Assembly: GCF_000169455.1 (NCBI RefSeq)
Contig: NZ_AAYC01000008.1
Span: 62,001 to 126,000 of the forward strand
Source: Roseobacter sp. SK209-2-6
GTDB lineage: Bacteria > Pseudomonadota > Alphaproteobacteria > Rhodobacterales > Rhodobacteraceae
Direction: 5' to 3'
DNA length: 64,000 bases
Shown: positions 31,018 through 54,445 of the stretch, one piece after another
How positions within the stretch are numbered: position 1 is the stretch's first letter
Layout of the letters: each line of letters begins with the position of its first letter
Made by a program: the position numbers and the translations under genes
The notes under the pieces: generated by a model
Databases searched by the model: none
Seen by the model: the letters and a program-made list of their open reading frames with translations, nothing else
What the model was told of the DNA's origin: nothing

Positions 31018-31291
31018 AGGTTCCTGCGCCCTTTCTCACCATTGTGGTTCACACGCCTTTGCCCTAGCCGGAAAAGATGGCAAAGCTGAGGCGTCTGCAC
31101 TTATTTTCCAGTGTTTTCGATCAGAAAGCGACTCCCCTTTAGTATGTTTTCGCTGACCTTTTGGCATTCCGACTAGTGATAATGCGTTTAGGAACTGGTT
31201 TAAGAAATCCTCTATGCTGAACTTTGAAAATGTCAAAAGCCAGCCACCAAATCCTCTATCCCTTGCCGCATTCTCTCACTAGGTAATGCAC

Positions 31292-32755
31292 ATGCCCAAC
31301 GCACTCGCTTATCTCATGCTGATGCTTTGGCCCGCAGTGAGCCTGATTCTGTTCCGGAGGTTGCCTCTCGAACGGGCTATTCTTTGGTGCATCCTCGCAG
31401 GATACCTGATCCTCCCTCCGGTTGCTGAGTTTGACCTGCCTTTGGTCCCGGATATGGATAAGTTCACAATCCCTTCGGTCATGGCTTTCGTACTGTGCAT
31501 CGGGCTCTTGCGCAAACCGGTTCCGCTACTGCCGCATCATCCTTTGGCAAAGCTACTCACCCTTGGCTTTGTCTTTGGCGTCATCCCCACGGTTCTAACC
31601 AATGATGATCCGGTGATTTTTGAAGTTCTGGCCGGATCTGAACCGATCCGATACATCACTGATATGCTTCCGGGTCTGCGCTGGATTGACTTGGGCTCGG
31701 TGGCGATCAATCAGGTGATCATCTTGATGCCCTTCCTGCTTGCGCGGCGTTACCTGTCCTCTCCGGACGGACAAAAAGAACTGTTGCTGGCCATTGCGAT
31801 TGCAGGATTGGCATATACGATCCCCTCTCTGATCGAAATCAGGCTAAGCCCGCAAACCAACACGATAATCTATGGCTTTTTTCAGCACGACTTCTCACAG
31901 ATGATGCGGCAAGGCGGCTTTCGCCCCATTGTTTTCCTTCCCCATGCTCTCTGGCTGGCGCTTTTCATGTTTTCGGCAATGATTGCAGCAGCAGCACTGG
32001 CACGCGCCGCCAATCAAAAAACACGCGCCCGTTTTGCAATTGCCTGCGCCTATCTCTTTGTTGTCCTTTTCCTGTGCAAAAGCTTGGCGTCTTTCACCTA
32101 TGCGCTTGCCTTCTTGCCTTTGGTTGCCCTTGGGTCCTATCGACTGCAGATCAAAGTAGCCGTTCTCTTGGCGACAATCGCCATCACCTATCCCATGCTG
32201 CGCAATCTTGGTCTGTTCCCAACCGAAGCAATTCTGGCCCAAGCCGAAGCTATCAGCGCTGATCGCGCACAATCATTGGGATATCGATTTCACAATGAAG
32301 CACTGATGCTGGAACGCGCGGCTGAGAAGCCCTGGTTTGGCTGGGGCGGCTGGGGGCGCAACCTCGTCCGGGACGGAGAAACCGGTTCGATCATTTCAAT
32401 TCCCGATGGGCATTGGATCCTGGTCTTTGGCACCCTGGGATGGCTGGGCTATATCTCGGAAATGGGCCTGCTGAGCCTCTCTCTCATTTTGTTGGGGATA
32501 GAACTGCATCGCCACAAGGCGAAAGAGGTATCCCCCTATGCGACGGCGATTGCCATCATTCTGGCGGCAACTCTGGTTGATATGATGCTGAACGACACGC
32601 TTGTTCCCTTTACCTGGCTTTGTGCCGGGTCGGTGCTGGGCTATGCTGAACGCCTGCGCTACCCAAACCTCTTTGGCAAAGCCAAACCTCTGTTTGACGG
32701 CCGTCAAATTCTAACGCAGGCCGGATCTGCACCGGAAAAACGGAGCCTGCTATGA
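31292..32755 (+). CDS. Wzy-like O-antigen ligase/polymerase family membrane protein
   Basis: About 487 residues with 10-12 hydrophobic segments and a large periplasmic loop carrying RFHNEALMLERAAEKPWFGWGGWGRN, which resembles the PF04932 Wzy_C loop motif. It lacks other recognisable domains. In this locus it is the best candidate for the enzyme that polymerises repeat units, or attaches the chain, on the outer side of the inner membrane. The ATG at 31292 lies eight bases after AGG; an ATG two codons earlier is also possible. The gap 31018-31291 holds no other gene that I can support. Confidence 0.82.
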   Translation: MPNALAYLMLMLWPAVSLILFRRLPLERAILWCILAGYLILPPVAEFDLPLVPDMDKFTIPSVMAFVLCIGLLRKPVPLLPHHPLAKLLTLGFVFGVIPTVLTNDDPVIFEVLAGSEPIRYITDMLPGLRWIDLGSVAINQVIILMPFLLARRYLSSPDGQKELLLAIAIAGLAYTIPSLIEIRLSPQTNTIIYGFFQHDFSQMMRQGGFRPIVFLPHALWLALFMFSAMIAAAALARAANQKTRARFAIACAYLFVVLFLCKSLASFTYALAFLPLVALGSYRLQIKVAVLLATIAITYPMLRNLGLFPTEAILAQAEAISADRAQSLGYRFHNEALMLERAAEKPWFGWGGWGRNLVRDGETGSIISIPDGHWILVFGTLGWLGYISEMGLLSLSLILLGIELHRHKAKEVSPYATAIAIILAATLVDMMLNDTLVPFTWLCAGSVLGYAERLRYPNLFGKAKPLFDGRQILTQAGSAPEKRSLL

Positions 32756-39512: not shown

Positions 39513-39517
39513 CAGTG

Positions 39518-40525
39518 ATGCAGAATGGCAGTGTCCTAACCATTATTCTGAACTATCAAACCCCGGAGATGACACTGCAATGTGCGCAGGCCGCCCTTGG
39601 GGAGATGGAAGATCTCACCGGGGAAGTCCTGATCATCGACAATGGTTCCGGTGATGGGTCTTGGGAGAAACTGCAGCAGGGCGTGCGGGAACGCGGCTGG
39701 CAGGACTGTGGCCGTTTGCGCCTGCACCGCTCTATGACGAATGGCGGCTTTGGGGCAGGAATGAACATCGGCTTTGCGTCTGGCTTTTCTGATGGCACCC
39801 AACCTGACTATTACTACCTTCTGAACTCTGATGCCTTTGTTCAGGGGCGCTCGATCCGCACCCTGCGCAACTTTCTCAAAGACCACCCTGGTGCTGGACT
39901 GGCCGGCTCTTATACCGAGGGAACTGATGGCACCCCACACCGCACTGCCTTTCGCTTTCCTTCGATCGCGGGTGAGTTTGAAATGGCCGCACGCACCGGT
40001 GTTTTCACACGGCTGCTAAAGCCATGGATCGTGGCGATGGAAATCCCCTCGGATGAGACGCAGGTGGATTGGGTCGCTGGTGCCAGTCTCATGATTACCC
40101 AAGCCGCTCTTGAGGCAATCGGAGGATTTGATGAGACCTTCTTCCTCTACTTTGAAGAAACCGACCTCTGCAAACGGGCCGCCAATGCCGGTTGGCGCAC
40201 ACATTACGTCCCGGAAAGCCGAGTTATTCACGTCGGTTCTGCCTCAACTGGAATGAAAGAGTGGCAACGCACGCCAAGCTACTGGTTTCAATCCCGCCAG
40301 CATTACTTCACCAAAACCCATGGCAAAGCCTATGCAGCCTGCGCCACTTTTGCACGTGCATTGGGCTGCGCGATCTATCGCTTTCGACAGGTTGTACAAG
40401 GCAAGCCCAAGCAAGACCCTGATCACTTCCTTCGCGATTTGATCCGCCATGCGCTCCCCCGTGTGAGCGCCCTTTCCAAACCCGAAACGCGCGCCCATAC
40501 CCCGATTTCGGAGGACCTTAAATGA
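39518..40525 (+). CDS. Glycosyltransferase family 2 (rhamnosyltransferase-like)
   Basis: A 335-residue GT2 enzyme. It shows TIILNYQTPEMTLQCAQAAL, VLIIDNGSGDGSW, NGGFGAGMNIGF, the LLNSDAFV metal site, DWVAGASLMITQAALEAIGGFDETFFLYFEETDLCKRA and a final WYRTPSYWF-like region (WQRTPSYWFQSRQHY), the pattern of dTDP-rhamnosyl- and related transferases. The ATG at 39518 has GGAG eight bases upstream; a GTG three bases earlier is disregarded. It stands between the PKS and NRPS genes, five bases after the first and overlapping the second by four. The polyketide machinery and sugar transfer are thus co-translated. Confidence 0.88.
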   Translation: MQNGSVLTIILNYQTPEMTLQCAQAALGEMEDLTGEVLIIDNGSGDGSWEKLQQGVRERGWQDCGRLRLHRSMTNGGFGAGMNIGFASGFSDGTQPDYYYLLNSDAFVQGRSIRTLRNFLKDHPGAGLAGSYTEGTDGTPHRTAFRFPSIAGEFEMAARTGVFTRLLKPWIVAMEIPSDETQVDWVAGASLMITQAALEAIGGFDETFFLYFEETDLCKRAANAGWRTHYVPESRVIHVGSASTGMKEWQRTPSYWFQSRQHYFTKTHGKAYAACATFARALGCAIYRFRQVVQGKPKQDPDHFLRDLIRHALPRVSALSKPETRAHTPISEDLK

Positions 40526-43500
40526 GCCCCTTTTCCTGCGTCGTCATCGGCGATGAGTCCCTTTTGATTGGCTGTTCAGAAGCCCTTTTGTCTGGAGGGC
40601 ATCACATCAAGGCAGTGGTCACCCAGGATCAGGACATCACCTCCTGGGCTGCTGACAAGGGTCTGCCGGTTCTCGCCTATCCCAAGGACATCAATGAGGA
40701 GTTCGATTGGCTCCTCTCCATCGCCAACCTCCGCATGATCCCACAGGGGGTTCTGGACAAAGCCACCAAAGGTGCGGTTAATTTCCACGATGGGCCGCTC
40801 CCAAACTATGCTGGCTTGAACACTCCAGTCTGGGCGATGATCGCTGGAGAGGCACAACATGGAATAACCTGGCACGTGATGGAGGGCGGCGTGGATGAGG
40901 GTGACATCCTGGCCCAACGCCTCTTTGACATTGGCGCGGATGAAACCGCCCTTAGTCTGAATTCCAAATGCTACGCAGCCGCCATGGACAGTTTTCCAGA
41001 GGTTCTGGCGCAGTTGGAAAGCGGCAGCTTGCAGCGCCGCGCCCAGGATCTGAGCCAGCGTAGTTATTTTGCCAAAGATCAACGCCCCTCGGGAGGGGCT
41101 GTTTTGGATTTTTCCAAACCGGCAGAAGAGCTGGCGCGCCTGGTTCAAGCGCTTGATTTCGGCGGCTATTGGAACCCGCTCTGGGCCCCAAAGATCATGA
41201 CCGCAACACGGTCACTTCTGGTCAGCAAGGCGCAGGTTGTGGATGGGATTGGTGCTGCCGGGACCATACTCTCGGTAACAGGAGCAGAGCTGCGCGTTGC
41301 GACCGGCCAGGGAACCCTGGCTCTCTCGGGTATCACTGAATTTGATGGTCAGGCCGCAGATCTCCCCGCTCTGTTCGAAGCGGGGCACACACTCCCGAGT
41401 TTCAACGCAGTTGCCGCCGAGCGCCTGACGCAAGCCCTTCGACAGACCCAGGGTGGAGAAAGCCACTGGCGCAAGGCCCTTGCCAATCTGCAGCCTGTAA
41501 CCGTCCCCCTCAGCGGGCAATACCCAGCATCTGGCCTCACTCGTCATGCAGTCGCGCTCCCCCAGGGTCTGGCCGAAGAAGACGTCATTGCCACAGTTTC
41601 AGCTTGGGCCATGCTCAGCACTGGTGAAGAAACCGCCGATATCGCTTTTGCGGTTGAGCCAGCTGACGAAACGTTAGGGCTCGTCTCGCCCTGGGTTCCC
41701 TTGCAGGCCTCTCGCAACCTTCTTGCAGGAGAGCACCTCTCTCGGGTAAAGGCCGAGGTCCAAATGGCGCGCGAGCATGGCGGATTCGCATTGGACCTGG
41801 TTGCACGTGCACCAGAGCTGGCACCGCATCAACAACCGGCAATTGGAATGACGGTGAAACAGGATGCGGACCTGCCAGGCTGCGTTGCAACGGTTTCACT
41901 TCATGACGGCGTTTTGGCGCTGCATGTGGATGACGCCCGGCTTGACAGCAAAACCGCGGAGCTGCTCGCCGCGCGGCTGGAGCTGGCGCTGGGTGTCATC
42001 CCCACCAATCCTGACTGCCCGCTGTCAGATCTATCCATCCTCCCCGAAGCGGAGCGAAAACAATTGCTGTCGGATTGGAACCAGACAGCAGCAGACCTTC
42101 CAGAGGCACCAACAATTCAAGCTGCCTTTGAAGCCCAGGTTGCCCAAACACCCGACGCAATTGCACTGGTTTTTGAGGATCAGAGTTTCAGCTACGCCGC
42201 TTTGAATGCCCGTGCCAATGGGGTGGCTGCTCAACTGCAAGCAAGGGGCGTTGCTCCTGGCGACCATGTTGGCATCTATGTAAAACGTTCGGCTGAGCTG
42301 CTGATCGCGGCTCTAGGTGTCCTCAAGGCGGGCGCGGCCTATGTTCCAATGGATCCCGCCTATCCAGCCAATCGACTAGAACATTTTCTGACCGACAGCG
42401 CGGCCAAATTCGTCATCACACAGGAAAACCTCCTGGATAGCCTTCCTGACAGCGCGGCGCAGGTGCTTTTGGTCGACCAGATCGCAGTGGGTGATGCTCT
42501 CCAGTCAAACATTACCAGTGAAGCAACGGCGGCGGATACGGCCTATCTGATCTACACCTCCGGCTCTACGGGCACGCCAAAGGGCGTGGTTGTGCGTCAC
42601 GAAAATGTCGCCAACTTCTTCGCTGCCATGGATGCACGTATCCCACACAAAGCCGGAGATTGCTGGCTCGCCGTCACCAGCCTCTCCTTTGACATCTCCG
42701 TTCTAGAGTTGTTCTGGACGCTTTCGCGGGGTTTCAAACTGGTGTTGTCCAGCGACGAAAGTCGCCTGGAACTATCCAAAGGCACGATTGCGATCTCGGA
42801 TCGGCGAATGGATTTCAATCTGTTCTACTGGGGCAATGACGACGGACCAGGACCGCGTAAATACCACCTTCTTCTGGAAGGAGCCAAATTCGCCGATGAA
42901 AATGGCTTTAACGCGGTCTGGACACCGGAACGCCATTTCCACGCCTTTGGCGGCCCCTATCCAAACCCCTCTGTTACCGGTGCGGCTGTTGCAGCGGTGA
43001 CCAAAAACCTGAGCGTGCGGGCAGGATCGGTGGTTGCTCCTCTGCATCACCCTGCCCGGGTGGCCGAGGAATGGTCGGTGATCGACAACCTCACCAATGG
43101 TCGAGCCGGGCTTGGCATCGCCTCCGGTTGGCAGCCAGATGATTTTATCCTGCGCCCGGAGAACACACCTCCGGCGAACAAACCCGCAATGTATGAATGC
43201 ATCGAAACCCTGCGCAAGCTGTGGCGGGGTGAGGAGGTTGAATTTCCCCGAAAAGATGGCTCCATGCATAGCGTCATCACCCAGCCGCGGCCGGTCTCCA
43301 AAGAGCTACCCCTCTGGGTGACAACCGCTGGCAACCCGGACACTTGGCGTGAAGCCGGTGAAATCGGCGCCAATGTGCTGACCCATCTGCTGGGGCAGAG
43401 CATTGATGAGGTGGCAGGAAAGATCCGTATTTATCATGATGCTCTGCGCGCTGCGGGCCGGGATCCTGCTGATTTCAAAGTCACGCTGATGCTGCACAGC

Positions 43501-45105
43501 TATCTCGCAGAAACCCGCGAGGAAGCGCGGCAAACAGCGCGGGAACCCATGAAGGACTACCTGCGCGCCGCCGCAGGGTTGATCAAGCAATATGCCTGGG
43601 CTTTCCCTGCCTTTAAGCGACCCAAGGGTGTGAACAACCCCTTTGAGATGCAACTGGATGCCCTCACGGCAGATGAGCTGGAGGCCATTCTGGAATTCGC
43701 CTTCGAACGCTATTTTGAAGACTCCGGCCTCTTTGGAACGGTAGAAGACGCGCTGGCCCGGACCGAAGAGCTGAAGCGCATTGGCGTTGATGAGATTGCC
43801 TGTCTCATCGACTATGGCATCGCCCCGGAACAAGTACTGGAGGGCCTCAAACCGCTAGCCGTAGTCTTGCGCCGCGCCAATACGGCACAGGAACTGGCAG
43901 AGGATGATTTCTCTCTCTCTGCGCAGATGATGCGGCACCAAGTCACCCATATGCAGTGTACACCTTCAATGGCTCGTATGCTGGTTCAGGATGATGAAGC
44001 ACGTGTCGTGCTGGGGCGTCTGCAGCATCTCTTGGTTGGGGGTGAGGCCCTGCCTGCCGACTTGGCTGGCAGTCTGCGCGAGGCCACAAATGCCGAAATT
44101 CGCAATATGTATGGCCCGACAGAAACCACCATTTGGTCAACAATGCATAGTATGCGCGGACACCCGCATGGAATAGCACCAATTGGAAAGCCGATTGCCA
44201 ATACATCTGTTTTTGTCCTGGATCAGGCGCAACACCCAGTGCCCATGGGCGCTGCGGGAGAGCTCTATATCGGTGGGTTAGGCGTTACCGCAGGCTATTG
44301 GCAGCGGCCTGATCTAACCGCCGAACGTTTCCCGAAAAACCCCTTTGGACAGGGCAAAATCTATCGCACCGGCGATCTGGTACGCTGGCGCGCTGATGGT
44401 GAACTCGATTTCCTTGGGCGCAGCGATCATCAGGTCAAAATCCGCGGGCAGCGGATCGAGCTGGGTGAGATTGAGGCCGCCATGGCAGCCTTTGAAGGGG
44501 TCACTGGTGCAGTCGTCATTCAACGCCAAGTCGGAAAGACCGAGCAACTGTTGGGCTATGTGACACAGAACCCGGAAAATCCGGTAGACCAGCAGGCATT
44601 GCTCTCTGCGCTTTCCGGTCAACTGCCCGAGGTCATGGTTCCAAACCAGATCGTCGCCCTGGACCGCTTTCCTCTGACTCCAAATAAGAAGATCGATCGC
44701 AAGGCTTTGCCCGATCCCAAACCACAAAAAGCGGCGCCTGCGGTCCAAGTTTCAGCACAGACCCCGGCACTAGGGGCGCAGAGCACAATTGCAGAGATTT
44801 GGAGCCGGATCTTGGGCGTGCAGGACATCGGAGCGCAGGACAACTTCTTTGCCCTTGGCGGACACAGTCTGCTCGCGGTTCAGGCCCACCGAGACATTCG
44901 CGAAGCGCTTTCGGTCCAGAAACTCTCGATCACCGATATTTTCCGCTTCCCCACTCTTTCGGGTCTAGCTACCCATGTGGAAGGTTTGACGGGCAACGGG
45001 GGGAGTTCGGACGATCAGCCGGACGACACCCCCACCGCTGACAAAAGCGACACCATTTCGAAACGGCGCGCGATGCGGGCCAACCGCAAAGCAAGGTCCG
45101 GATGA
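40522..45105 (+). CDS. NRPS: formyltransferase - degenerate C - A domain with inserted luciferase-like monooxygenase - PCP
   Basis: A 1527-residue synthetase. Residues 1-290 are a formyltransferase with Asn87, His89 and Asp125 (VNFHDGPLPNYAG, VDEGDI). Residues about 300-510 look like a C-domain remnant without HHxxxDG. The A domain starts near 530, with YTSGSTGTPKG at 678-688 and FDISVLELF at 723-731. It is then interrupted by an FMN-dependent luciferase-like domain (about 760-1110, DFNLFYWGNDDG, VWTPERHFHAFGG, GLGIASGW), and resumes with LLVGGEAL and NMYGPTETT. The specificity residues D724-I725-L728-Q1145-L1171-G1173-M1196-I1204-W1205-K1390 give DILQLGMIWK, against DILQLGLIWK for glycine. 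The PCP has Ser1449 (LGGHSL). There is no TE. It overlaps both neighbours by ATGA. Confidence 0.92.
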   Translation: MSPFSCVVIGDESLLIGCSEALLSGGHHIKAVVTQDQDITSWAADKGLPVLAYPKDINEEFDWLLSIANLRMIPQGVLDKATKGAVNFHDGPLPNYAGLNTPVWAMIAGEAQHGITWHVMEGGVDEGDILAQRLFDIGADETALSLNSKCYAAAMDSFPEVLAQLESGSLQRRAQDLSQRSYFAKDQRPSGGAVLDFSKPAEELARLVQALDFGGYWNPLWAPKIMTATRSLLVSKAQVVDGIGAAGTILSVTGAELRVATGQGTLALSGITEFDGQAADLPALFEAGHTLPSFNAVAAERLTQALRQTQGGESHWRKALANLQPVTVPLSGQYPASGLTRHAVALPQGLAEEDVIATVSAWAMLSTGEETADIAFAVEPADETLGLVSPWVPLQASRNLLAGEHLSRVKAEVQMAREHGGFALDLVARAPELAPHQQPAIGMTVKQDADLPGCVATVSLHDGVLALHVDDARLDSKTAELLAARLELALGVIPTNPDCPLSDLSILPEAERKQLLSDWNQTAADLPEAPTIQAAFEAQVAQTPDAIALVFEDQSFSYAALNARANGVAAQLQARGVAPGDHVGIYVKRSAELLIAALGVLKAGAAYVPMDPAYPANRLEHFLTDSAAKFVITQENLLDSLPDSAAQVLLVDQIAVGDALQSNITSEATAADTAYLIYTSGSTGTPKGVVVRHENVANFFAAMDARIPHKAGDCWLAVTSLSFDISVLELFWTLSRGFKLVLSSDESRLELSKGTIAISDRRMDFNLFYWGNDDGPGPRKYHLLLEGAKFADENGFNAVWTPERHFHAFGGPYPNPSVTGAAVAAVTKNLSVRAGSVVAPLHHPARVAEEWSVIDNLTNGRAGLGIASGWQPDDFILRPENTPPANKPAMYECIETLRKLWRGEEVEFPRKDGSMHSVITQPRPVSKELPLWVTTAGNPDTWREAGEIGANVLTHLLGQSIDEVAGKIRIYHDALRAAGRDPADFKVTLMLHSYLAETREEARQTAREPMKDYLRAAAGLIKQYAWAFPAFKRPKGVNNPFEMQLDALTADELEAILEFAFERYFEDSGLFGTVEDALARTEELKRIGVDEIACLIDYGIAPEQVLEGLKPLAVVLRRANTAQELAEDDFSLSAQMMRHQVTHMQCTPSMARMLVQDDEARVVLGRLQHLLVGGEALPADLAGSLREATNAEIRNMYGPTETTIWSTMHSMRGHPHGIAPIGKPIANTSVFVLDQAQHPVPMGAAGELYIGGLGVTAGYWQRPDLTAERFPKNPFGQGKIYRTGDLVRWRADGELDFLGRSDHQVKIRGQRIELGEIEAAMAAFEGVTGAVVIQRQVGKTEQLLGYVTQNPENPVDQQALLSALSGQLPEVMVPNQIVALDRFPLTPNKKIDRKALPDPKPQKAAPAVQVSAQTPALGAQSTIAEIWSRILGVQDIGAQDNFFALGGHSLLAVQAHRDIREALSVQKLSITDIFRFPTLSGLATHVEGLTGNGGSSDDQPDDTPTADKSDTISKRRAMRANRKARSG

Positions 45106-45815
45106 TCTTAGACACCCTGAACCAAGACAAAGAGCGATGGGGCCTGGCCCGGTCGCTCTTTGCTGACGATATTGCACTTGCTGTATGTGATCCTCTCTCC
45201 GACCTGCCCGCCCCATTGACCGAGGAAAGCGCCTGCCTGTCTCCCAATGCCGTAGAAAAGAGACGCCGTGAATTTGCTGCGGGTCGTGCCGCTGCTCACG
45301 ATGCCCTGACCGCACTCGGAGAACCGGTGGTCCCTATCCTGGCTGGAGAAGACCGCGCGCCCATCTGGCCCCTCGGCGTCACCGGATCGATCAGCCATAC
45401 TAAAAGCTGCGCCATGGCCGTTGCCGCCCTGCAAGATCCCACCACGGCGAATATGGTTCTGGGGCTTGGAATTGATATTGAAGAAGACACCCCCCTGGCC
45501 AAGGTTCTTTGGCGTGCGATCTGCACCCCGCAAGAGCAGGAATGGGCCAGAACCCAAGCAAATCCAGGACAAATGGCGAAGCTGGTTTTTTCCGCCAAGG
45601 AAGCTGCCTACAAATGCCAGTATGCCACCAGTCGCCGCTACTATGGATTTGACGGAATGGAACTGGAGTTTGATGTGGAAAACGGATCATTCCGCGCCTA
45701 TTTTTGCGCCGATCAGCCCCCTTTCAGATCCGGAGATTTTATCGCTGGGCGCTATGCCATAGGTGCTGGCCTGATCCTAACGGCAGCAGAAAACAGGCAG
45801 AAACCACAATGCTAA
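45102..45815 (+). CDS. 4'-phosphopantetheinyl transferase (EntD/Sfp-type)
   Basis: A 237-residue enzyme that arms carrier proteins with the pantetheine arm of CoA. It has the EntD-like N-terminal stretch RRREFAAGRAAAHDAL, GSISHTKSCAMA, the magnesium-binding GLGIDIEED, and FSAKEAAYKCQY. All four motifs are complete. It overlaps the NRPS gene by four bases, and is therefore the obvious activator of the PCP (Ser1449) and the ACP of the PKS (Ser1829). A tandem of synthase and dedicated PPTase shows the pathway is self-contained. Confidence 0.95.
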   Translation: MILDTLNQDKERWGLARSLFADDIALAVCDPLSDLPAPLTEESACLSPNAVEKRRREFAAGRAAAHDALTALGEPVVPILAGEDRAPIWPLGVTGSISHTKSCAMAVAALQDPTTANMVLGLGIDIEEDTPLAKVLWRAICTPQEQEWARTQANPGQMAKLVFSAKEAAYKCQYATSRRYYGFDGMELEFDVENGSFRAYFCADQPPFRSGDFIAGRYAIGAGLILTAAENRQKPQC

Positions 45816-46744
45816 GATGTCATCTTTGGGCACTTTCGGCCTTCATGGCGCTGTGGCCTTTTGCCAGTATCGCAGGCCCCTTCCCCATTCCGCCGCTCCC
45901 CCCTCCCAAAGGCGCGCTTTCCACCTATCACCTTGGACATTCGCTCGTAGGTCCTGATGTGCCTCATATGTTGGCGCAGCTAGCACCCAATGGGCATCGC
46001 TGGAATGCGCAGCGTGGCTCTGGAACTTCACTTAGGGCCCATTGGGAACCAGAGGAAGAGATCCTGCACTTTGAAATCAGCAATCCTGCTCCGGCCTATC
46101 GCGATGCGCGTGAGGCAGTGGGCTCTGGTGAATATGATGTCATCGTGCTGACCGAAATGGTCGAATTGCGCGATGCGCTGAAGTACTTTGATGGCGCAAA
46201 GTACCTGCGCTATTGGGCGGATCTGGCCCGCAAAGCCAACCCCGAAACCCGCATCTATCTCTATGAGACCTGGCACCACCTGAACGACCCTACTGGGTGG
46301 GAAAGGCGGATCCAGCAGGATTTGGATTCTCTTTGGTTGGGTGGTTTGCTGGGACCAGACAGCCGACGCAATCCGCGTCGCCCGGTCTATTTGATCCCCG
46401 CAGGCCAGGTGATGGCCGCAGTTGTCCAGGCAATCGAAGCTGGAAAGATCGAGGGCCTTGTCACACGTGAGGATCTCTTTGCACGCACGCCCGAGGGAGA
46501 GGTTGATACCATCCACATCAATGATCTGGGCGCCTATCTCGTAGCGCTCACCCATTTTGCGGTCATTTACCAACTCTCTCCGGTCGGCCTGCCACATCAA
46601 CTGACACGCGCGGATGGATCCCCTGCTCAGGCCTTCTCTGCTCCCGCTGCAAATGAGATCCAGAAACTTGTCTGGCAGGTGGTGCAAGCACAGCCTCGCA
46701 CCGGCCTTGCCAGTGTTTCCGCCTCCGAGGGCGCGCAGGAATGA
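45809..46744 (+). CDS. Secreted SGNH-hydrolase-like protein
   Basis: A 311-residue protein with a signal peptide (LWALSAFMALWPFASIAG) and a GDSL/SGNH-hydrolase fold: nucleophile candidate Ser45 in YHLGHSLVG, and the Asp-x-x-His pair D233-H236 in VDTIHINDLG. Family members are esterases or lipases, often acting on acetylated or acylated polysaccharides. The ATG at 45809 gives the signal peptide and overlaps the PPTase gene by seven bases. Its body is recognisably similar to residues 1-230 of the next gene product (YETWHHL versus QETWHSL, IPAGQVMAAVVQAIEAGKIEG versus LPAGQALARLDDAIRAGTIPG), so the two arose by duplication. The likely role is periplasmic acyl removal or transfer on the polymer (inference). 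Confidence 0.72.
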   Translation: MLRCHLWALSAFMALWPFASIAGPFPIPPLPPPKGALSTYHLGHSLVGPDVPHMLAQLAPNGHRWNAQRGSGTSLRAHWEPEEEILHFEISNPAPAYRDAREAVGSGEYDVIVLTEMVELRDALKYFDGAKYLRYWADLARKANPETRIYLYETWHHLNDPTGWERRIQQDLDSLWLGGLLGPDSRRNPRRPVYLIPAGQVMAAVVQAIEAGKIEGLVTREDLFARTPEGEVDTIHINDLGAYLVALTHFAVIYQLSPVGLPHQLTRADGSPAQAFSAPAANEIQKLVWQVVQAQPRTGLASVSASEGAQE

Positions 46745-49266
46745 ATGTCGAGAGCCTCATCACCAGCGTGGTCATGATCGGCCATTCGCTCTTTGGTCAA
46801 GATAACCCCGTCATGCTGGAACAGCTGCTCAGCAATCAACACCAGGTTTCTGAGGTTGCGGTAGAAGCGCAGATCATCAATGGGGCTCCACTCGGCTACA
46901 ACTGGGAGCATGCGGACCGCGCCGAGGGCATCAATGCCCGCCTTCGCCTCAGCAAGAGCGCTGATGTGGTCATCGTGACTGAGGCCATTCCGCTGGACAA
47001 CCACCTAAAATGGAGTGGAACCGAAGAGGCCATCACCAATTTCTATGAGCTGGCCCGCAGCAGCAATCCGGAGGTGAAATTCTATCTCCAGGAAACCTGG
47101 CACAGCCTTGAGAGTGGCACGGGAAAAGAGATCCGTTTTGATGATGGGGCCGAAACGCCCTGGCGGGACCGGTTGGAGTTAGACTTCCCGAAGTGGCAGG
47201 GACTGGTGGACGAAGTCAACGACGCCACCGGAGGCACAATCGCACTTTTGCCTGCTGGCCAGGCCCTGGCGCGACTGGATGATGCGATCCGCGCGGGAAC
47301 TATACCGGGTCATCACAAAATCCAGGATTTCTTTGCCGATGATATCCACCCCAATGCGCTGGGGTTCTACTATCTGAGTCTGTTGCAATATGCCGTGCTG
47401 ACCGGATCCTCGCCCGAGGATCTGCCATCCCATATGAAAGACCGGTGGGGGGAAGCCTATCGCGCGCCCTCACCCGAGGTTGCCCAGCGCCTCAAGGAAC
47501 TTGCATGGGCGTCGGCTCAGGATGGGGTTGTACAGACTGAGGTCCTACCAGAAGAGCTTCCGCTCCCACCCGCAGACCTTGATGTGCCAGCGCTGAATGG
47601 CCCCCTTGCGGTTGCTCTCCCCGATGCGCTTGAGCCCGCATCAGAGGTAGACCGCCAGCCCATTGCCATGAACTTGATGCCTGTTGCGGACTGGAGCCCA
47701 CAGGCCCCCTTTCTGGATCACTTCAAGACCTCGCGCCCCTGGATTGGGCATCTTCCGGGACGCTGGGGTGGCGCAACCGAACAGGATCTAGAGCTTGCGG
47801 GCTATTTGGACCCGACAGGCTGGCCCACCGCAATCCCGCCAGAGCTAGGATCCATCGGCACCGTGATCCTGACCGACCTGCCTGACGAGGCCAGCTCTCT
47901 GGCTGGACGTTATGTGTTGCGGTTTGAAGGTGATGGTATTGTCGAAGTCGCTGGCAGGGCAACGAACCAGCGCTATGGCAAGGGACAGGTATCGTTTGAC
48001 TACAGCCCCGGCCCTGGTCCGGTCGAAATCCGCATTCAAAGGCTGAGCCCAAAAGGGGACTACATCCGCAATATCACCGTGGTCAAAGAAGAGCATCTCG
48101 AAGCTTTTGACGCCGGAGCTTTGTTCAACCCGCTCTGGCTGGAGAGGCTGGACGGCTTTGCCGCCCTTCGGTTCATGGATTGGATGGGGACAAATGATTC
48201 CGCTCAAGTAGGCTGGGAAGACCGCCCTCTTATCAGCGATTACAGCTGGGCCCGCAAAGGTGTTCCCGCAGAAGTAATGATCTCATTGGCCAATGAACTT
48301 GGTACTGCACCATGGTTCAATATGCCCCACCGGGCCGATGATACCTACACGCGAAAATTCGCAACCCTGGTTCAAGAGCAGCTGGATTTCGATCTACAGG
48401 CCTATGTGGAATATTCCAATGAGGTCTGGAACTGGCAATTTGAACAGGCCCGATGGGCAGATGAGCAGGCCCAAAGGATATGGGGGGGAAGAGATCTCTG
48501 GATGCAGTTCTATGGGGGGCGGGCCGCCGAGATCTCGCAGATTTGGACCGATGTTTTTGGGGACCAGAGCAAAGAACGCTTGATCCGTGTACTCGCCACC
48601 CAAACGGGTTGGCTGGGCCTCGAAGAACAGATCCTCAACGCACCACTCTGGACAGCCGAAGTCGCAGATCGCCGCCCCCCTGCCAGCTATTTTGATGCCT
48701 ATGCAGTCACTGGATATTTTGGCGGCATCCTTGGTTCAAAAGAACGCGCTCCGGTGTTGCGTGCCTGGCTCGCCGAGAGCCGCAGCCTGGCAGCGGAACA
48801 GGCTAGGTCAAACGGCTTGAAGGGCGAAGAGGCGGAACGCTTCATTCTGGAGCACCAATATGACATCGCGGTGGCTCAGGCCGCCATTGAAATTGAAGAT
48901 GGGCTCGTGACCGGCAATGTCGATGACACGCTCACCGACCTCTTAGGTCGGGTATTGCCCTATCACAAAACCGTGGCAGACCGTCATGGGCTGGACCTCA
49001 TCATGTATGAGGGCGGAAGCCATGTGGTGGGACTGGGCCCCATTGTAGAAGATGAAGCCATTACCGCCTTCTTCACCCATTTCAACTTTACCCCAGAGAT
49101 GGGGAAACTCTATGAAATGCTGCTCGCAGGTTGGCAAGAGAATGGCGGCGGCCTATTTGCGGCCTATGCGGATATTGCCGTCCCCGGAAAATGGGGCAGT
49201 TGGGGTGCCTTGCGTTTCCTAAGCGATGAGAACCCTCGTTGGTCTGTACTGGAGGCCGTGAAATGA
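46741..49266 (+). CDS. SGNH-hydrolase domain fused to a clan GH-A-like glycoside hydrolase domain
   Basis: An 841-residue two-domain protein. Residues 1-250 repeat the SGNH unit of the previous gene, with Ser16 (GHSLFG) and D200-x-x-H203 (DDIHPNALG). Residues about 330-460 are a beta-rich linker domain (RFEGDGIVEVAG, RIQRLSPKGDYIRNI). Residues about 465-841 form a barrel with the acid/base candidate Glu561 in YVEYSNEVWNW and nucleophile candidate Glu757 in IMYEGGSHV, as in clan GH-A glycosidases. No signal peptide is visible, unlike in its paralogue, so export is unclear. It may cut or trim the polysaccharide. The start overlaps the upstream stop by ATGA, as does its stop with the next gene. 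I do not know the exact GH family. Confidence 0.75.
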   Translation: MNVESLITSVVMIGHSLFGQDNPVMLEQLLSNQHQVSEVAVEAQIINGAPLGYNWEHADRAEGINARLRLSKSADVVIVTEAIPLDNHLKWSGTEEAITNFYELARSSNPEVKFYLQETWHSLESGTGKEIRFDDGAETPWRDRLELDFPKWQGLVDEVNDATGGTIALLPAGQALARLDDAIRAGTIPGHHKIQDFFADDIHPNALGFYYLSLLQYAVLTGSSPEDLPSHMKDRWGEAYRAPSPEVAQRLKELAWASAQDGVVQTEVLPEELPLPPADLDVPALNGPLAVALPDALEPASEVDRQPIAMNLMPVADWSPQAPFLDHFKTSRPWIGHLPGRWGGATEQDLELAGYLDPTGWPTAIPPELGSIGTVILTDLPDEASSLAGRYVLRFEGDGIVEVAGRATNQRYGKGQVSFDYSPGPGPVEIRIQRLSPKGDYIRNITVVKEEHLEAFDAGALFNPLWLERLDGFAALRFMDWMGTNDSAQVGWEDRPLISDYSWARKGVPAEVMISLANELGTAPWFNMPHRADDTYTRKFATLVQEQLDFDLQAYVEYSNEVWNWQFEQARWADEQAQRIWGGRDLWMQFYGGRAAEISQIWTDVFGDQSKERLIRVLATQTGWLGLEEQILNAPLWTAEVADRRPPASYFDAYAVTGYFGGILGSKERAPVLRAWLAESRSLAAEQARSNGLKGEEAERFILEHQYDIAVAQAAIEIEDGLVTGNVDDTLTDLLGRVLPYHKTVADRHGLDLIMYEGGSHVVGLGPIVEDEAITAFFTHFNFTPEMGKLYEMLLAGWQENGGGLFAAYADIAVPGKWGSWGALRFLSDENPRWSVLEAVK

Positions 49267-50099
49267 GCGCCGCGCTCTCCGTTTTGATCCCTGCACATAA
49301 TGAGGCGAACTATATAGGGCCTTGCCTCAGCGCCCTTTTCGCATCTGATCCTTTGCCTGATGGGGACGAAGTCGAGGTTCTGGTTCTTGCCAATGCCTGC
49401 AGCGACGAAACAGCATCGATCGCCCGTGGCGTGCCCGTGCCCAAAGGATGGCACTGCGAAGTGATTGAAATCCCCGAGGGGGGAAAGCTGAACGCGCTCA
49501 ACCACGGCGATGCACGCGCCAAAGGGAACGTTCTTGTCTACCTTGATGCAGATGTTGAGGTCGCACCAGATTTGATCCGACAGATCCGGAAAACACTGGA
49601 TCGCTCGGCTCCGATCTATGCCAGCGGGACCCCTCTGATCGCACCATCCCCAAGCCTGATCTCCAGGCTCTATGGGCGGTTTTGGGTAAGGCTGCCTTTC
49701 TTTCGCAGTGGTGTTCCTGGGTTTGGTCTCTTTGCAATGAACAGAGCGGGACGAGAACGCTGGCAGAGCTGGCCGGATATCATCGCCGATGACATGTTTG
49801 CCCGCCTCTCTTTTGCACCCACTGAACGCATCCGCCTCGCGGGTAAATATAGCTGGCCCCTGGTCGAGGGGTTCCGCAATCTCGTTCGTGTCCGGCGGCG
49901 GCAAAATGAAGGGGTGGCGGAACTGGCTCAGCGTTTCCCTCATCTCTTGCAGAACGAGGATAAATCAGAGCTAACCATCACAGAACTGCTGCGCCTGATG
50001 CGACAAGATTGCTTGGGGTTTGCCGTCTACGCACTTTTGTCCCTTGCGGTGAAATCTCCGCTTTTCCCCTCCTCCCAACGCTGGACACGAGGGCGCTAG
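49263..50099 (+). CDS. Glycosyltransferase family 2
   Basis: A 278-residue GT2 enzyme. It starts SVLIPAHNEANYIGPCLSALF, has VLVLANACSDETASIA, KLNALNHGDARAKGNVLVYLDADVEV (DxD) and IADDMFARL, and a weakly hydrophobic C-terminus (LGFAVYALLSLAVKSPLF). It is related to polyprenol or sugar transferases of envelope synthesis. Its ATG overlaps the preceding stop by four bases. It is the last gene of the plus-strand operon that begins with the PKS; a convergent glycosyltransferase ends 35 bases further. Confidence 0.87.
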   Translation: MSAALSVLIPAHNEANYIGPCLSALFASDPLPDGDEVEVLVLANACSDETASIARGVPVPKGWHCEVIEIPEGGKLNALNHGDARAKGNVLVYLDADVEVAPDLIRQIRKTLDRSAPIYASGTPLIAPSPSLISRLYGRFWVRLPFFRSGVPGFGLFAMNRAGRERWQSWPDIIADDMFARLSFAPTERIRLAGKYSWPLVEGFRNLVRVRRRQNEGVAELAQRFPHLLQNEDKSELTITELLRLMRQDCLGFAVYALLSLAVKSPLFPSSQRWTRGR

Positions 50100-50134: not shown

Positions 50135-51361
50135 CTAGGCTTGTTCACAGGCTTCTCGGAACAACGCCGCAAGCTTGACCGCTTCTTTGTCACTGTCGTG
50201 CCGCTGAAGAACCCTTTCGCGACCGGCCATCCCCATTTCAGAGAAACGTTCTTGCGACAAATCCGCTATCTCCAGTATCTGCTCTGCCAATGCTCCTGCG
50301 TCACCAGCCGGGACCAGCCAGCCGTTTTCTCCATGCAAAACCAGTTCTGGCGTTCCGGCAATATAGGTGGCCAGCACGGGACGCCCCGCAGCCATGGCCT
50401 CCATAACCACCATCGGCAACCCTTCCGCAAAGGAGGGCATGACCAAAGCATGGGAGGCGGCAAGCTCTGCGCGCACACCAGCCTCCGAGAGCCAGCCAGT
50501 CAATGTGACATGCGCCCCTAGACCGTTTTCCGCAATTGCGGCTTCCAACTCAGGCCGCATCTCACCATCCCCTATCAGGGTTAGATGCACAGAAGGCTGC
50601 TCTTTGATCACCTGTAAAAGAGCTTGGATCAGTACCATCTGCCCTTTTTGCTCTACAAAACGACCAATCGCCACAAGTCGCAATCTACTCGAAGGGAGGG
50701 GCACCACCTCAGAAAAATGCTTGGGCTCGATGCCGCAATGAACGACCCTTAACTTGCGCCAACAATCAAAATCGGCCCAGCGGCTCAATTGGCTTTTTCC
50801 AAAACTGCTCACCGCGACTGCAAAACTGGCCTGTTTAAGTTTTTCACCCAGAGACAATGCGCGTGGGCTGTCAAACTCTTCGGGACCGTGAGTTGTAAAA
50901 CTGAAACTGGGTCCATTCAGTGCTTTTGCAAAAAGCGCAACCGAGGTGGCATTGGTCCCAAAATGGGCGTGCATATGGTCAATGCCAGCACGCTGGCATT
51001 CTTGTTTCACATAAGCGGCCTCGACCAGATAGATCAGGTGTTTCAGATAGCCAACCTCGGACACACGCCCCATTTTCACCGCCAGACGCAGAGCCTGCCA
51101 GAACGGCCTTGGAGTTTGGACAAGACTGAGAAAAAGCGCAGAAAGCAGGGCCCCGCCCCCCGCCTTGAGAACATATTGCGTTCTCTGGGCTTCGCTCATA
51201 TCGCCCGGATCAACCAATGGTGCTGACCCCGGTCGCATAGCCAAACGTAAAACCTCTATTCCCTGGTTTTCCAGGGCTTGAATTTCCCGCCTGATGAAGC
51301 TGTGAGAAGGCTGTGGGTAGCTGTTCAGAACATAAGCAATTTTCAAAGGCCTATACTCCAA
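50135..51361 (-). CDS. Glycosyltransferase family 4 (GT-B fold)
   Basis: A 408-residue retaining GT-B enzyme. The N-terminal domain has IAYVLNSYPQPSHSFIRREIQAL and HMHAHFGTNATSVALFAKAL (GT4 acceptor side). The C-terminal domain has LRLVAIGRFVEQKGQMVLIQAL, LTLIGDGEMRPELEAAI and the nucleotide-sugar site MPSFAEGLPMVVMEAMAAGRPVLAT with the E-x7-E pair. The start at 51361 is the first Met before the first strand. It is divergent from the flippase gene, with a 217-base region between them. The sugar donor is unknown. Confidence 0.9.
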   Translation of the reverse strand: MEYRPLKIAYVLNSYPQPSHSFIRREIQALENQGIEVLRLAMRPGSAPLVDPGDMSEAQRTQYVLKAGGGALLSALFLSLVQTPRPFWQALRLAVKMGRVSEVGYLKHLIYLVEAAYVKQECQRAGIDHMHAHFGTNATSVALFAKALNGPSFSFTTHGPEEFDSPRALSLGEKLKQASFAVAVSSFGKSQLSRWADFDCWRKLRVVHCGIEPKHFSEVVPLPSSRLRLVAIGRFVEQKGQMVLIQALLQVIKEQPSVHLTLIGDGEMRPELEAAIAENGLGAHVTLTGWLSEAGVRAELAASHALVMPSFAEGLPMVVMEAMAAGRPVLATYIAGTPELVLHGENGWLVPAGDAGALAEQILEIADLSQERFSEMGMAGRERVLQRHDSDKEAVKLAALFREACEQA

Positions 51362-51578
51362 GGTCAGCCAAATTTTCGGCAGAATAGCCGCTACCCCACC
51401 GTTTGCCTAGAGGTGTTAAGCGATTGTTCTTTATCCATCTTTAATGAGGGTTTCTCATCGGAATTGATCCCGCAACCAATCCTGAAATTGGCCTAAAATC
51501 TAGCACTTTCGCCCTTCAATTGACGATAACAGGCAGGCCCTTTAGCTTGCAGTGGCACATTCAGAAGCCGGAGAAACC

Positions 51579-52949
51579 ATGAAGCAGATCGCAGCCCATT
51601 TTTCCGGCCAAGGACTTTTGGCACGGGTCCTGCGATCCACGTTTTGGCTCGTTGCAGGCTATGGCGGCAGCCAGGCCCTGAGGCTTGGCGCAAACCTGAT
51701 CCTTGCGCGACTTTTGTTTCCCGAAGCCTTCGGCTTGATGGCCTTGATTACGGTGGTAACCGTGGGTCTTTCACTGTTCTCTGATGTAGGGATCGGCCCC
51801 TCGATTGCACAAAACAGCCGCGGGGATGACCCTGCCTTTCTGGATACTGCCTGGAGTATTCAGATCCTGCGAGGCTTTGTCCTATGGGGCATGACACTGC
51901 TTCTTGCCTGGCCGATGGCAGAGTTTTACGGCAGCCGTGAGTTGCTTTACTACCTGCCTATTGCGGGGGTTGGACTGGCCGTCGCAGGTTTCAACCCGAC
52001 GCGGATTGAAACCGCACATCGCCACCTCCTAGTAGGGCGCGTCACTCTTTTGGATCTTGCCGCCCAGATATTGGGGGTCAGCGCCATGGTCTGTTTGGCC
52101 TGGGTGACAGAATCCGTCCTGGCACTGGTCTTGGGAGGCGTTATCCAAGCCATAGCCAAGCTGACCATGATGCATGTTGGCCTACCTGGGCACCGCAATC
52201 GGTTTCGTTGGGAAAAAGATGCCGCCAAAGAGCTGATACGATTTGGAAAATGGATCTTCATGTCGACCGCGTTTTGGTTTCTCACCTCCCAGGGAGACCG
52301 CGCCATTCTAGGGAAGTTCGTCCCCTTGGAGACCCTGGGGATCTACAATATCGGTTTTTTCCTGGCCAGTTTTCCGATGTTGCTGGGGCATGCCGTCAAC
52401 CAGCGCCTGATGATCCCGGTTTATCGCGATAAACCTGTATCCGCTGATCCGGCAAACCGGCGGAAACAACGACTGCTTCGTTTTGGCCTCAGCTTCGGCG
52501 TTCTGGGGATGTTATTTGCGATGGCGATGCTGGGCCCATGGCTCATAGATCTGCTTTATGATGCCCGTTACACAATGGCTGGCCCAATGATGGTCATGAT
52601 CGCCCTGTCACTTGTGCCCGCCGTAATTACCATGACCTATGATCAGGCCGCTTTGGCCGCTGGTGATGGGCGGTCTTTCTTTGCCTTTACCGCAACCAGA
52701 GCCATTCTGCAGACCGGGCTATTCTTGCTCGCGACTATGTTCTGGGGGCTACCCGGCGGCATTGTCACCATGGGGGGCTCCATGCTGCTGGCATATCCGG
52801 TTCTGATTTGGTTGGCACGAAAGCACCAGGCCTGGGATCCGCTCCATGACGTCGTCTTTGCCACAGGCTCACTGCTGGCAGGTGCGGCCATCCTCTGGTG
52901 GCATCAAGACGCTTTGGTAGAGCTGATTTACATGGCGCCACCTCAGTAG
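51579..52949 (+). CDS. Wzx-like polysaccharide flippase (MOP superfamily)
   Basis: A 456-residue inner-membrane protein with about 14 helices. It starts ARVLRSTFWLVAGYGGSQALRLGANLILARLLFPEAFGLMAL, the typical flippase opening, and contains LSLFSDVGIGPSIAQNSRGDDPAFLDTAW and LEPLGIYNIGFFLASFP-like central helices (LETLGIYNIGFFLASF). It should flip undecaprenol-linked repeat units across the inner membrane for the Wzy-like polymerase. The ATG at 51579 has GGAG six bases upstream; a GTG nine codons earlier is less likely. It is divergent from the GT4 gene. Confidence 0.9.
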   Translation: MKQIAAHFSGQGLLARVLRSTFWLVAGYGGSQALRLGANLILARLLFPEAFGLMALITVVTVGLSLFSDVGIGPSIAQNSRGDDPAFLDTAWSIQILRGFVLWGMTLLLAWPMAEFYGSRELLYYLPIAGVGLAVAGFNPTRIETAHRHLLVGRVTLLDLAAQILGVSAMVCLAWVTESVLALVLGGVIQAIAKLTMMHVGLPGHRNRFRWEKDAAKELIRFGKWIFMSTAFWFLTSQGDRAILGKFVPLETLGIYNIGFFLASFPMLLGHAVNQRLMIPVYRDKPVSADPANRRKQRLLRFGLSFGVLGMLFAMAMLGPWLIDLLYDARYTMAGPMMVMIALSLVPAVITMTYDQAALAAGDGRSFFAFTATRAILQTGLFLLATMFWGLPGGIVTMGGSMLLAYPVLIWLARKHQAWDPLHDVVFATGSLLAGAAILWWHQDALVELIYMAPPQ

Positions 52950-53011: not shown

Positions 53012-54277
53012 TTATCTTTTTCCGATCATGCGCAGAGGCGCCAAAAGCGAAAACAGCAATTGCCCACGGCGCCCCACCTTCAACGGGGGAATAGAAGCAA
53101 CGGGAGCCAGACCGGTTTCACGCTCCATCTGTGCTGCAGTTCGCAGCACCGGAGCCCGCAGCTCCAGGAGAAAGGCAATGATCAAGCCGATCAGAATGCT
53201 TGCAGCCCCACCTATGATCGCTTTCTTCTTTCGCGCTGAAGTCGCAGGATAATCCGCAAGTGTCGCGGGCTCCAGAACGGTCAAACGCTCCGATTGGCGC
53301 GCTGTTTCAAGCCGAAAACCTACTTCGGCCTCATTCCGGCGGGCTGAAATCATGGAAAACTCCGCTTGCAGGGTCTCCATCCGGCGTTCATAGGCGCCCA
53401 ACTGACGCTGTACCTCCGGTGTAGTCTGCAGGGCGGCTTCAAGCTCTTCTTTGCGCTGCTGAAGCAATTCACGCTGGGCATCCAGTGTGGCCAGCTGTTC
53501 TTCATACTCCGCCAGCATACGCCGTGCCGTTGCGGGGCGTTCATTGGCGCTCACCTGGTCTGCGGCCCGGCGCACCTGAATTTGCTCACGTGCAATATCC
53601 AGGAGGCTCTCGTTGATTGCCGCGATTTCGTTGCGGCGAAACTCTATCGTACCAGGCTGTGCCACATCATTTTCTGCGTAGAATGCTGCAATTTCACTCT
53701 CCAGCTCGGCAACCTGAGCTGCAACCGCCGACTCCTTCTCCGCAAAGAAACCCAGCGTTTCACGGGCCTGCTCAATCCTAGTGTTGATGCTCAACTCGAT
53801 CGTTCGGCGACCAAACTCACTTGCAACATCGCGTGCTTGTTCTGCAGAAGGTAGCAGGGCGGTGATGGTCACAACCGAGATCGTACCATCATCAGTGAAG
53901 CCTTCGCGAGCAGCGGCAACGCCCGTAATGCTGATGGACTCACGCAGCATTACCACTTTTTCCGTCGGCGTCATCTGGGTGAGATCAGTATAAAGACCAA
54001 ACTTGTCGATGATCTCCAAGAGAGTGCCACGTGCCATGAGACGTTGCTCAATCAACTGGATACGCCTGGCAGAGGAGCCTTCCACTGTTGATTTCGCTAG
54101 ATCATCGGCGATGGTTGGACGCACAACCTGCAAGACTTCAGCGCTGTGGTACATATGCTGTTGCTGCAAGGCGCCCCAAACAGAGAAGACTGAACCGATC
54201 ATCGCGACAAGCAGGATTACGGATGCTCGCCGCCGCAGCATATCCCAAAAATCTCTGAGCGAATAAATCGGCCCCAT
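53012..54277 (-). CDS. Wzz/GumC-type chain-length determinant protein
   Basis: A 421-residue polysaccharide co-polymerase. It has a membrane helix near residues 20-38 (SVILLVAMIGSVFSVWGAL), a periplasmic part with a long coiled coil (about 180-330, rich in Glu/Gln/Arg) and a second helix (IIGGAASILIGLIIAFLLEL) after a P-rich VLEPATLADYP motif. No C-terminal tyrosine kinase domain follows; the kinase-like protein is encoded separately just upstream at 54446. It controls polymer length in the inner membrane. The start at 54277 gives the expected short cytosolic N-terminus. Confidence 0.9.
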   Translation of the reverse strand: MGPIYSLRDFWDMLRRRASVILLVAMIGSVFSVWGALQQQHMYHSAEVLQVVRPTIADDLAKSTVEGSSARRIQLIEQRLMARGTLLEIIDKFGLYTDLTQMTPTEKVVMLRESISITGVAAAREGFTDDGTISVVTITALLPSAEQARDVASEFGRRTIELSINTRIEQARETLGFFAEKESAVAAQVAELESEIAAFYAENDVAQPGTIEFRRNEIAAINESLLDIAREQIQVRRAADQVSANERPATARRMLAEYEEQLATLDAQRELLQQRKEELEAALQTTPEVQRQLGAYERRMETLQAEFSMISARRNEAEVGFRLETARQSERLTVLEPATLADYPATSARKKKAIIGGAASILIGLIIAFLLELRAPVLRTAAQMERETGLAPVASIPPLKVGRRGQLLFSLLAPLRMIGKR

Positions 54278-54445
54278 GCTACTGCTCTCTGTTCTTCTGC
54301 TTTGATCTCGGTCTGGCTAGATCACCGTTTTTCGCTTCACAGCGGTTCTCTTTGCCAAAACTCTGACCACAGCAACGCGGCAAAACTGTGTCGACGCGAT
54401 GGAAAAGCACCGTGTAAGTGAAAATGGTCACCGATTTTCGCTAGG

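Follow-up and report, generated by a model that had tools for sequence, protein, structure and literature searches.

The window analysed here, a 64,000-nucleotide stretch of Roseobacter sp. SK209-2-6 (contig NZ_AAYC01000008.1, positions 62,001 to 126,000 of the forward strand), contains a gene for a nonribosomal peptide synthetase (NRPS) that begins with a formyltransferase (F) domain, continues with half of a condensation (C) domain and an adenylation (A) domain interrupted by a luciferase-like monooxygenase (LLM), and ends in a peptidyl carrier protein (PCP) domain. It is preceded by genes for a type I polyketide synthase (PKS) and a GT2 glycosyltransferase and followed by one for a 4'-phosphopantetheinyl transferase (PPTase). 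Neighbours among these four genes overlap or stand 2 bases apart, and, as read from the sequence, the four appear to form one operon. An earlier sequence-only reading had taken the NRPS for a likely starter module making formylglycine, perhaps alpha-hydroxylated. What it observed was right and its interpretation is largely plausible, but it was incomplete, since the halved C domain, the NRPS-PKS operon and the surrounding polysaccharide locus were missed.

Domain architecture of the NRPS

A Pfam search of the 1527 aa protein returned Formyl_trans_N at residues 68-162 (E 5e-16), Formyl_trans_C at 195-281 (E 1.2e-4), AMP-binding in two stretches (best 536-749), Bac_luciferase at 777-1091 (E 6.4e-50), AMP-binding_C at 1316-1390 and PP-binding at 1422-1486. 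Chance is excluded as the source of this architecture because all 11 of the same-genus genomes searched carry a full-length copy that is 70-74% identical, and these copies, together with the residues conserved in the alignment, likewise rule out a broken gene. The alignment comprises 100 rows (96 distinct sequences) out of 104 possible (the window plus loci L004-L106), L024, L077, L079 and L104 having been dropped by length or coverage.

The intact formyltransferase triad proposed earlier (N87, H89 and D125) is kept in 97 of the 100 rows, and the other three have no F stretch, i.e., by Pfam a C domain replaces F in L025 and L026, and the L043 open reading frame (ORF) is without that stretch. 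When the predicted model of residues 1-530 (mean pLDDT 93.1, pTM 0.88) was searched with Foldseek, it retrieved ArnA (4.3e-24) and methionyl-tRNA formyltransferase (Fmt; 3.4e-23). With phmmer, LgrA reached 31.5 bits against the F domain, less than a sugar formyltransferase (67.4) or Fmt (73.7).

That the A domain is split between its A4 and A5 motifs by a luciferase-like domain was borne out. TIGR04020 (MupA/Atu3671 luciferase-like monooxygenase) scores 469.2 bits, against a cut-off of 244.45, over residues 765-1114, and the A4 (FDIS, 723-726) and A5 (NMYGPTE, 1195-1201) motifs can be read in the sequence on either side of the insert. The best solved sequence match to the LLM is PuwE (6ket; E 1e-99). 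The predicted model of residues 521-1490 (mean pLDDT 83.2, pTM 0.62) matched GrsA (1amu) over the A domain with a TMt of 0.84 and PuwE over the insert with a TMt of 0.87, and in this model the A fold is predicted to be kept around the insert.

The specificity code of the A domain, DILQLGMIWK, consists of D724, I725, L728, Q1145, L1171, G1173, M1196, I1204, W1205 and K1390, anchored by eye on the A4, A5 and A10 motifs with GrsA positions and numbering; it matches the published Gly reference code at 9 of 10 positions and is thus glycine-type. The code residues D, Q, G, M, W and K are identical in all 100 rows, I725 and L728 in 99 and I1204 in 97, and position five varies (L 51, M 38, F 9, C 1, V 1). 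The Met by which the code differs from the reference is also present in two relatives without F. Because it is fixed in 100 of 100 rows, we regard it as a family feature; the earlier description of the code as one residue away from glycine was correct, but the deviating residue is the norm here, and we set aside the deviation as a sign of another substrate.

The region between F and A, residues 300-525, yields no Pfam Condensation match at E 0.001. An hhalign comparison of 13 homologous stretches with four full C domains gave a probability of 96.1 (E 3.5e-9) over template columns 186-455, and the HHxxxDG of the four-domain set lies at positions 131-137 of its first sequence. In a profile search of solved structures, C domains match only the last 65 of 237 positions (McyB, 1.2e-11). 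Because the hhalign match begins past HHxxxDG and the structure matches cover so little of the profile, the region is, by profile comparison, the C-terminal lobe of a C domain alone, with F occupying the place of the N-lobe. A complete but mutated C domain is ruled out by the missing Pfam match and by a profile alignment that starts past the catalytic motif. Residues 300-525 are also the least conserved part of the NRPS, with a mean majority share of 0.46 vs 0.84 for the LLM. The sequence-only reading had called it a condensation-like region without HHxxxDG, and indeed HHxxxD occurs in none of 98 rows, but the region represents only one lobe. The F fold with its triad and the missing HHxxxD support, at sequence level, the proposed starter module without a working C domain, and from this anatomy we infer an initiation position for the module.

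The joining of F and LLM in one protein had been taken as singular, a view that does not stand, since the combination is common to the aligned F-type rows. A curators' note may describe a formyltransferase family with a flavin monooxygenase domain in connection with oxazolomycin; should that hold, the combination of F and LLM would be less novel. By its sequence, the module combines two known features and is widespread, and its interest lies mainly in its consistent link to exopolysaccharide loci.

The operon and its surroundings

Within the operon, the PKS carries ketosynthase (KS), acyltransferase (AT), ketoreductase (KR), dehydratase (DH), acyl carrier protein (ACP) and thioesterase (TE) domains. 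In an alignment of 84 different PKSs, every row retains the AT Ser, the KR Tyr and Asn, the DH His and Asp, the ACP Ser, and the TE Ser and His; the KS Cys with its two His is retained in 83 rows, the remaining row having a gap there. At the usual KR Ser position, 60 rows have Ser, 23 have Thr and one has Val. The DH (window 37203-38024) lies after the KR and has an atypical HxxxxGxxxxP and a D...G motif; its His, Pro and Asp are present in 84 of 84 rows and the motif Gly in 81. Compared with the usual form of the DH motif, there is an extra residue between His and Gly, and a Gly stands at the usual Gln/His position. Dehydration by this DH is uncertain because its motif is odd and the KR precedes it.

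Table 1. Features of the NRPS, its operon and the neighbouring genes, in window coordinates.
Feature	Position	Strand	Basis
Putative initiation NRPS, F-half C-A(LLM)-PCP, 1527 aa	40522..45105	+	ORF list, Pfam, TIGR04020, alignments
Formyltransferase domain, residues 1-299, core and C-terminal subdomain	40522..41418	+	Pfam, phmmer, model, Foldseek
Formyltransferase triad N87, H89, D125	40780..40896	+	Alignment
C-terminal lobe of condensation domain, residues 300-525; N-lobe with HHxxxDG absent	41419..42096	+	hhalign, structure-profile search
Adenylation domain part 1; A4 FDIS at 42688-42699	42127..42768	+	Pfam; D724 invariant in alignment
TIGR04020 FMN luciferase-like monooxygenase between A4 and A5	42814..43863	+	TIGR04020, PuwE match
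Adenylation domain part 2 and A_C subdomain; A5 NMYGPTE at 44104-44124	43885..44691	+	Pfam, alignment, model
Peptidyl carrier protein, phosphopantetheine Ser1449	44785..44979	+	Pfam, alignment
Type I PKS, KS-AT-KR-DH-ACP-TE, 2180 aa	32970..39512	+	Pfam, alignment
GT2 glycosyltransferase between PKS and NRPS; 4-base overlap with NRPS start	39515..40525	+	
4'-Phosphopantetheinyl transferase; 4-base overlap with NRPS stop	45102..45815	+	Pfam
Secreted-looking protein, GHSL and DxxHxN motifs, SGNH-like by eye	45809..46744	+	
841-aa protein, no Pfam family, SGNH-like N-terminus by eye; overlaps previous gene by 4 bases	46741..49266	+	
GT2 glycosyltransferase	49239..50099	+	Pfam
Two GT2 enzymes (+), WecG/TagA/CpsF glycosyltransferase (-)	28025..31017	mixed	Pfam
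Protein with 11 hydrophobic segments, no Pfam family; polymerase-/ligase-like by topology only	31286..32755	+	
GT4 EpsE-like glycosyltransferase (-), Polysacc_synt_3 flippase-type protein (+)	50135..52949	mixed	
Two-ended membrane protein (chain-length type by topology only), CpsD-like ATPase, PF02397 initiating sugar transferase	53012..56352	-	

Downstream of the PPTase, the start of the gene for the secreted-looking protein is inferred (the ORF is listed from 45704), and DUF4886 scored below cut-off for its product. The C-terminal part of the 841-aa protein that follows resembles, by eye, a glycoside hydrolase.

With a flippase-type protein, an initiating sugar transferase and glycosyltransferases, the surroundings have the make-up of a Wzx-dependent exopolysaccharide locus. 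The CpsD-like ATPase was below the Pfam cut-off and is named from a homologue annotated CpsD/CapB, and no export family was found among the window ORFs searched by Pfam. The glycosyltransferases are preceded by a TamA-like Omp85 and TamB pair (window 22688-28071), and a LysR regulator is encoded at 20244-21185 (- strand); TamA/TamB are also found near the Aliiroseovarius F-type NRPS (L023).

Association with polysaccharide loci

We scored polysaccharide genes by tblastn (>60 bits) in a census of 93 F-type loci (L015-L106 minus L025 and L026, plus L111-L113), among which L019 and L113 are near relatives of each other, as are L111 and L112. The PKS, GT2, NRPS and PPTase genes stand in one order and on one strand in 80 of the 93, and at least one polysaccharide gene is present in 84. 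This count becomes 82 when glycosyltransferases are excluded and 77 when it is restricted to flippase, initiating transferase, kinase, export or ligase genes; a glycosyltransferase besides the operon's own is found in 81. The nine misses comprise five pieces shorter than 13 kb (L034, L077, L079, L096 and L104) plus L022, L023, L099 and L106. Pfam adds three of these, namely L022 (a Wzz-like protein just under cut-off), L099 (a nucleotidyl transferase/mannose-phosphate isomerase protein) and L106 (a polysaccharide export protein), bringing the total to 87 of 93 loci.

Polysaccharide genes were found in none of 20 random 20-kb segments from three same-genus genomes and in none of six control LLM-NRPS loci, i.e., those in which the match starts at query residue 387 or later. 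Among these six controls, a C domain takes the place of F by Pfam in two, and the LLM is a separate gene in L108 and L109.

In plasmid records, the NRPS gene lies amid polysaccharide genes in Parasedimentitalea, Ruegeria, Paracoccus, Aminobacter, Shinella and Deinococcus, and this is the setting in 10 of the 11 annotated F-type plasmid stretches (the unannotated L021 and L022 are outside the 11). The plasmid records label these homologues by their LLM only.

Distribution of the F/half-C unit

Including that of the window, all 12 genomes of the genus searched have an NRPS homologue, and a first draw of other family members gave 3 of 12, one of them split: in G020 (C3:523967-528498), the homologue occupies two neighbouring frames, the break falling between query residues 1210 and 1214. 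With a profile of the F/half-C stretch, and counting the window's own genome in each draw, matches were obtained in 55 of 149 genomes of the family, 4 of 240 of the class (2 other family members among them) and 11 of 299 of the phylum (6 other family members among them). In an 8.8-Mb genome of the same class (G578), the F/half-C profile matched four times; one match lies in a frame of 3123 aa, and one contains a stop.

A genome scan found at least 575 stretches encoding an F/half-C relative at E 1e-3 or better, the presence of an LLM in each being a separate matter. These numbers, with more on plasmids, rule out the uniqueness of a single gene. The best 80 of the at least 575 are mostly from Roseobacteraceae or Paracoccaceae, with the addition of metagenome-assembled genome contigs labelled Hydrogenophaga, Burkholderiales and Verrucomicrobiales (L084, L087, L096 and L104). 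L084 nests among alphaproteobacterial rows in a tree of 44 rows (midpoint root; three long rows), and these copies may reflect transfer or misbinning. The tree leaves unsettled how three controls, the L022/L023/L024 set and a 37-row clade branch from one another, and it does not decide for or against a single clade of F-containing rows.

A plasmid search with the F/half-C stretch gave 65 records with at least 80% cover. Among the 60 matches listed, 41 are from rhizobia (four genera, about 29-32% identity), 4 from Mycetohabitans and 1 from Paraburkholderia. We opened five plasmid-borne examples from these groups (L136-L140; 99% query cover, 30-31% identity), in which F and half C head long NRPS or NRPS-PKS genes in the order F, A, PCP, full C. 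Similar to the window NRPS, with which they can be aligned across the half-C stretch, they combine F with half a C domain; in contrast to it, they have no LLM in the first 1700 residues and a full C domain after the first PCP, and no polysaccharide gene was present in the stretches read. Because these five have F/half C without an LLM, F plus half C is, as far as sequence can tell, a wider starter unit, of which the LLM form with a PKS is one branch. A phage search gave 3 distant luciferase-like matches.

Comparison with known systems

LgrA of linear gramicidin synthesis is similar in that an N-terminal formyltransferase, here with its N/H/D triad, stands ahead of A-PCP. It differs in that the window F domain scores higher to Fmt and sugar formyltransferase than to LgrA, and F is not joined directly to A, as a half C lobe of about 225 aa intervenes. 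No half C lobe or LLM is known from LgrA. The PuwE structure shares 45% identity with the window LLM over the Foldseek alignment, including the stretch PERHFHAFGG; PuwE comes from a hybrid PKS/NRPS (structure title) and is not known to lie in a formylglycine module.

The likeness to MtaG and MelG claimed by the sequence-only reading is supported at sequence level, in that these have a flavin monooxygenase at the same site of a glycine A domain, with a4 before it and a5 after it (PMC10204066), and the window A domain has a glycine-type code. In both, the alpha carbon of glycine is hydroxylated, after which the bond breaks and a glyoxylyl unit is left (PMC10204066, PMC11342130), whereas solanimycin B retains alpha-hydroxyglycine (PMC10204066). 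The MtaG/MelG module works on a completed chain, from which it releases an amide, its glycine being N-acylated by the upstream chain, whereas in the window F/half C would start a line leading into a PKS. The working upstream C domain of such a module is absent, there being only a C-terminal lobe without HHxxxD, and its chain-ending role is probably absent as well. This comparison follows the published descriptions.

Genes of the operon are probably already in print as mere PKS and NRPS entries. In Phaeobacter inhibens T5, a PKS (Inhi_1972) and an NRPS (Inhi_1974) two locus tags apart are listed as present in three strains (PMC4062626); they may be the same operon, and the excerpt gives no product, domain detail or polysaccharide link for them. 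A Tritonibacter T1PKS/NRPS hybrid cluster is named in excerpts of PMC11225332. Neither the architecture nor the polysaccharide link is described in the excerpts of PMC4062626, PMC4359443, PMC10204066, PMC11342130, PMC9396620, PMC8949500, PMC8383342 and PMC11225332, and our search covered open-access literature only and so tests absence weakly. A 2022 review calls F domains very scarce and counts no more than three peptides for which N-formylation by such a domain is known (PMC8949500).

Proposed pathway and alternatives

On balance, we think it probable that a formylating, glycine-oxidising initiation module feeds one PKS module and that both are devoted to surface polysaccharide. Going by its code, the A domain would load glycine on the PCP, and the F domain, given its fold and triad, would formylate the glycyl amine from formyl-tetrahydrofolate. 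The LLM would then act on N-formylglycyl-S-PCP, most likely by C-alpha hydroxylation as reported for MtaG and MelG. The module is built like a C-A(LLM)-PCP module, and it may have arisen from one by exchange of the upstream acyl chain for a formyl group; formyl would be the smallest N-acyl group, and its use here would account for a formyltransferase in the place of half the C domain. The unit would move to the KS of the adjacent PKS for one extension and KR reduction, perhaps with DH dehydration, and the TE would release or transfer a small formamido or formamide-derived acyl acid. A line running in this way would be predicted to yield 4-formamido-3-hydroxybutanoic acid (C5H9NO4, 147.05), 4-formamidobut-2-enoic acid (C5H7NO3, 129.04) and the +O forms of both. 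At the least certain step, this acyl unit would most likely be attached to the glycan or made alongside it, perhaps with the help of the co-transcribed GT2 or the SGNH-like proteins. Attachment to polysaccharide is something that we infer from gene context.

Several points weigh against this proposal. Gene proximity is no proof that the acyl unit is attached to a glycan. The census favours kin because the window and four of the loci supplied its queries and its 80 genome loci are the best 80 of the at least 575, and the six controls are all from Streptomyces or cyanobacteria. For L023 (Aliiroseovarius), the stretch covered contains no gene for polysaccharide assembly. In the 11 annotated plasmid stretches, the F-type genes have no neighbour named flavin reductase, whereas one is next to or near the NRPS in three of the six control loci (L026, L107 and L110). 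The placement of the LLM relative to the A domain is unsure because of the pTM of the A-LLM model. Finally, an MtaG-like oxidation would weaken the N-C-alpha bond, and loss of formamide could waste the formylation.

The same line might instead make a free small molecule, such as a signal, a metallophore or a glycosylated metabolite, that is hydrolysed or cyclised by the TE and merely co-regulated with exopolysaccharide genes. The conserved TE Ser and His fit this, as do the LLM-NRPS relatives without F in the match, which sit amid secondary-metabolite genes (one beside siderophore uptake genes), and the long rhizobial and Mycetohabitans NRPSs headed by F/half C described above. Nevertheless, we consider it somewhat unlikely, given that polysaccharide neighbours accompany 87 of the 93 loci across Rhodobacterales, Hyphomicrobiales and Deinococcus, that the GT2 is conserved in the operon and that no TonB receptor is among the domain matches of the window ORFs searched. 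Cleavage of the MtaG type, in which hydroxylated N-formylglycyl-S-PCP loses formamide and glyoxylyl-S-PCP passes to the PKS, the formyl serving only as a handle for oxidation, overlaps with our proposal, where the fate of the hydroxylated unit stays unspecified. The formyl group turns the substrate into an N-acylglycine, and the LLM occupies the A4-A5 site at which, in MtaG and MelG, the residue breaks to glyoxylyl (PMC10204066, PMC11342130). However, cleavage is not obligatory, because solanimycin B keeps its alpha-hydroxyglycine (PMC10204066), and the route would be a costly way to glyoxylate; we judge it quite unlikely. The LLM could also act elsewhere, either as an N-hydroxylase yielding a hadacidin-like N-formyl-N-hydroxyglycine unit or on the chain bound to the PKS. 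The substrates of TIGR04020 members vary, and an N-formyl hydroxamate would be chemically useful. We find this very unlikely, as the cases of an LLM within a Gly A domain described in excerpts of PMC10204066 and PMC11342130 are C-alpha hydroxylations.

Returning to the proposed pathway to surface polysaccharide, we tentatively suggest, while stopping short of calling it probable, that about a third of the genera sampled in the family (55/149) build a dedicated exopolysaccharide acyl group on an N-formyl-(alpha-oxidised) glycine NRPS-PKS line. F domains have been called scarce, yet 55 of the 149 genomes sampled from a single bacterial family carry the F/half C of one NRPS family, and the operon would offer a simple two-enzyme system for testing LLM oxidation within an A domain together with formylation and PKS extension. 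If the suggestion is true, an assembly line of the antibiotic type serves as a surface-glycan decoration pathway, and if the polysaccharide link is right, assembly-line chemistry would be joined to surface glycans in a major marine group.

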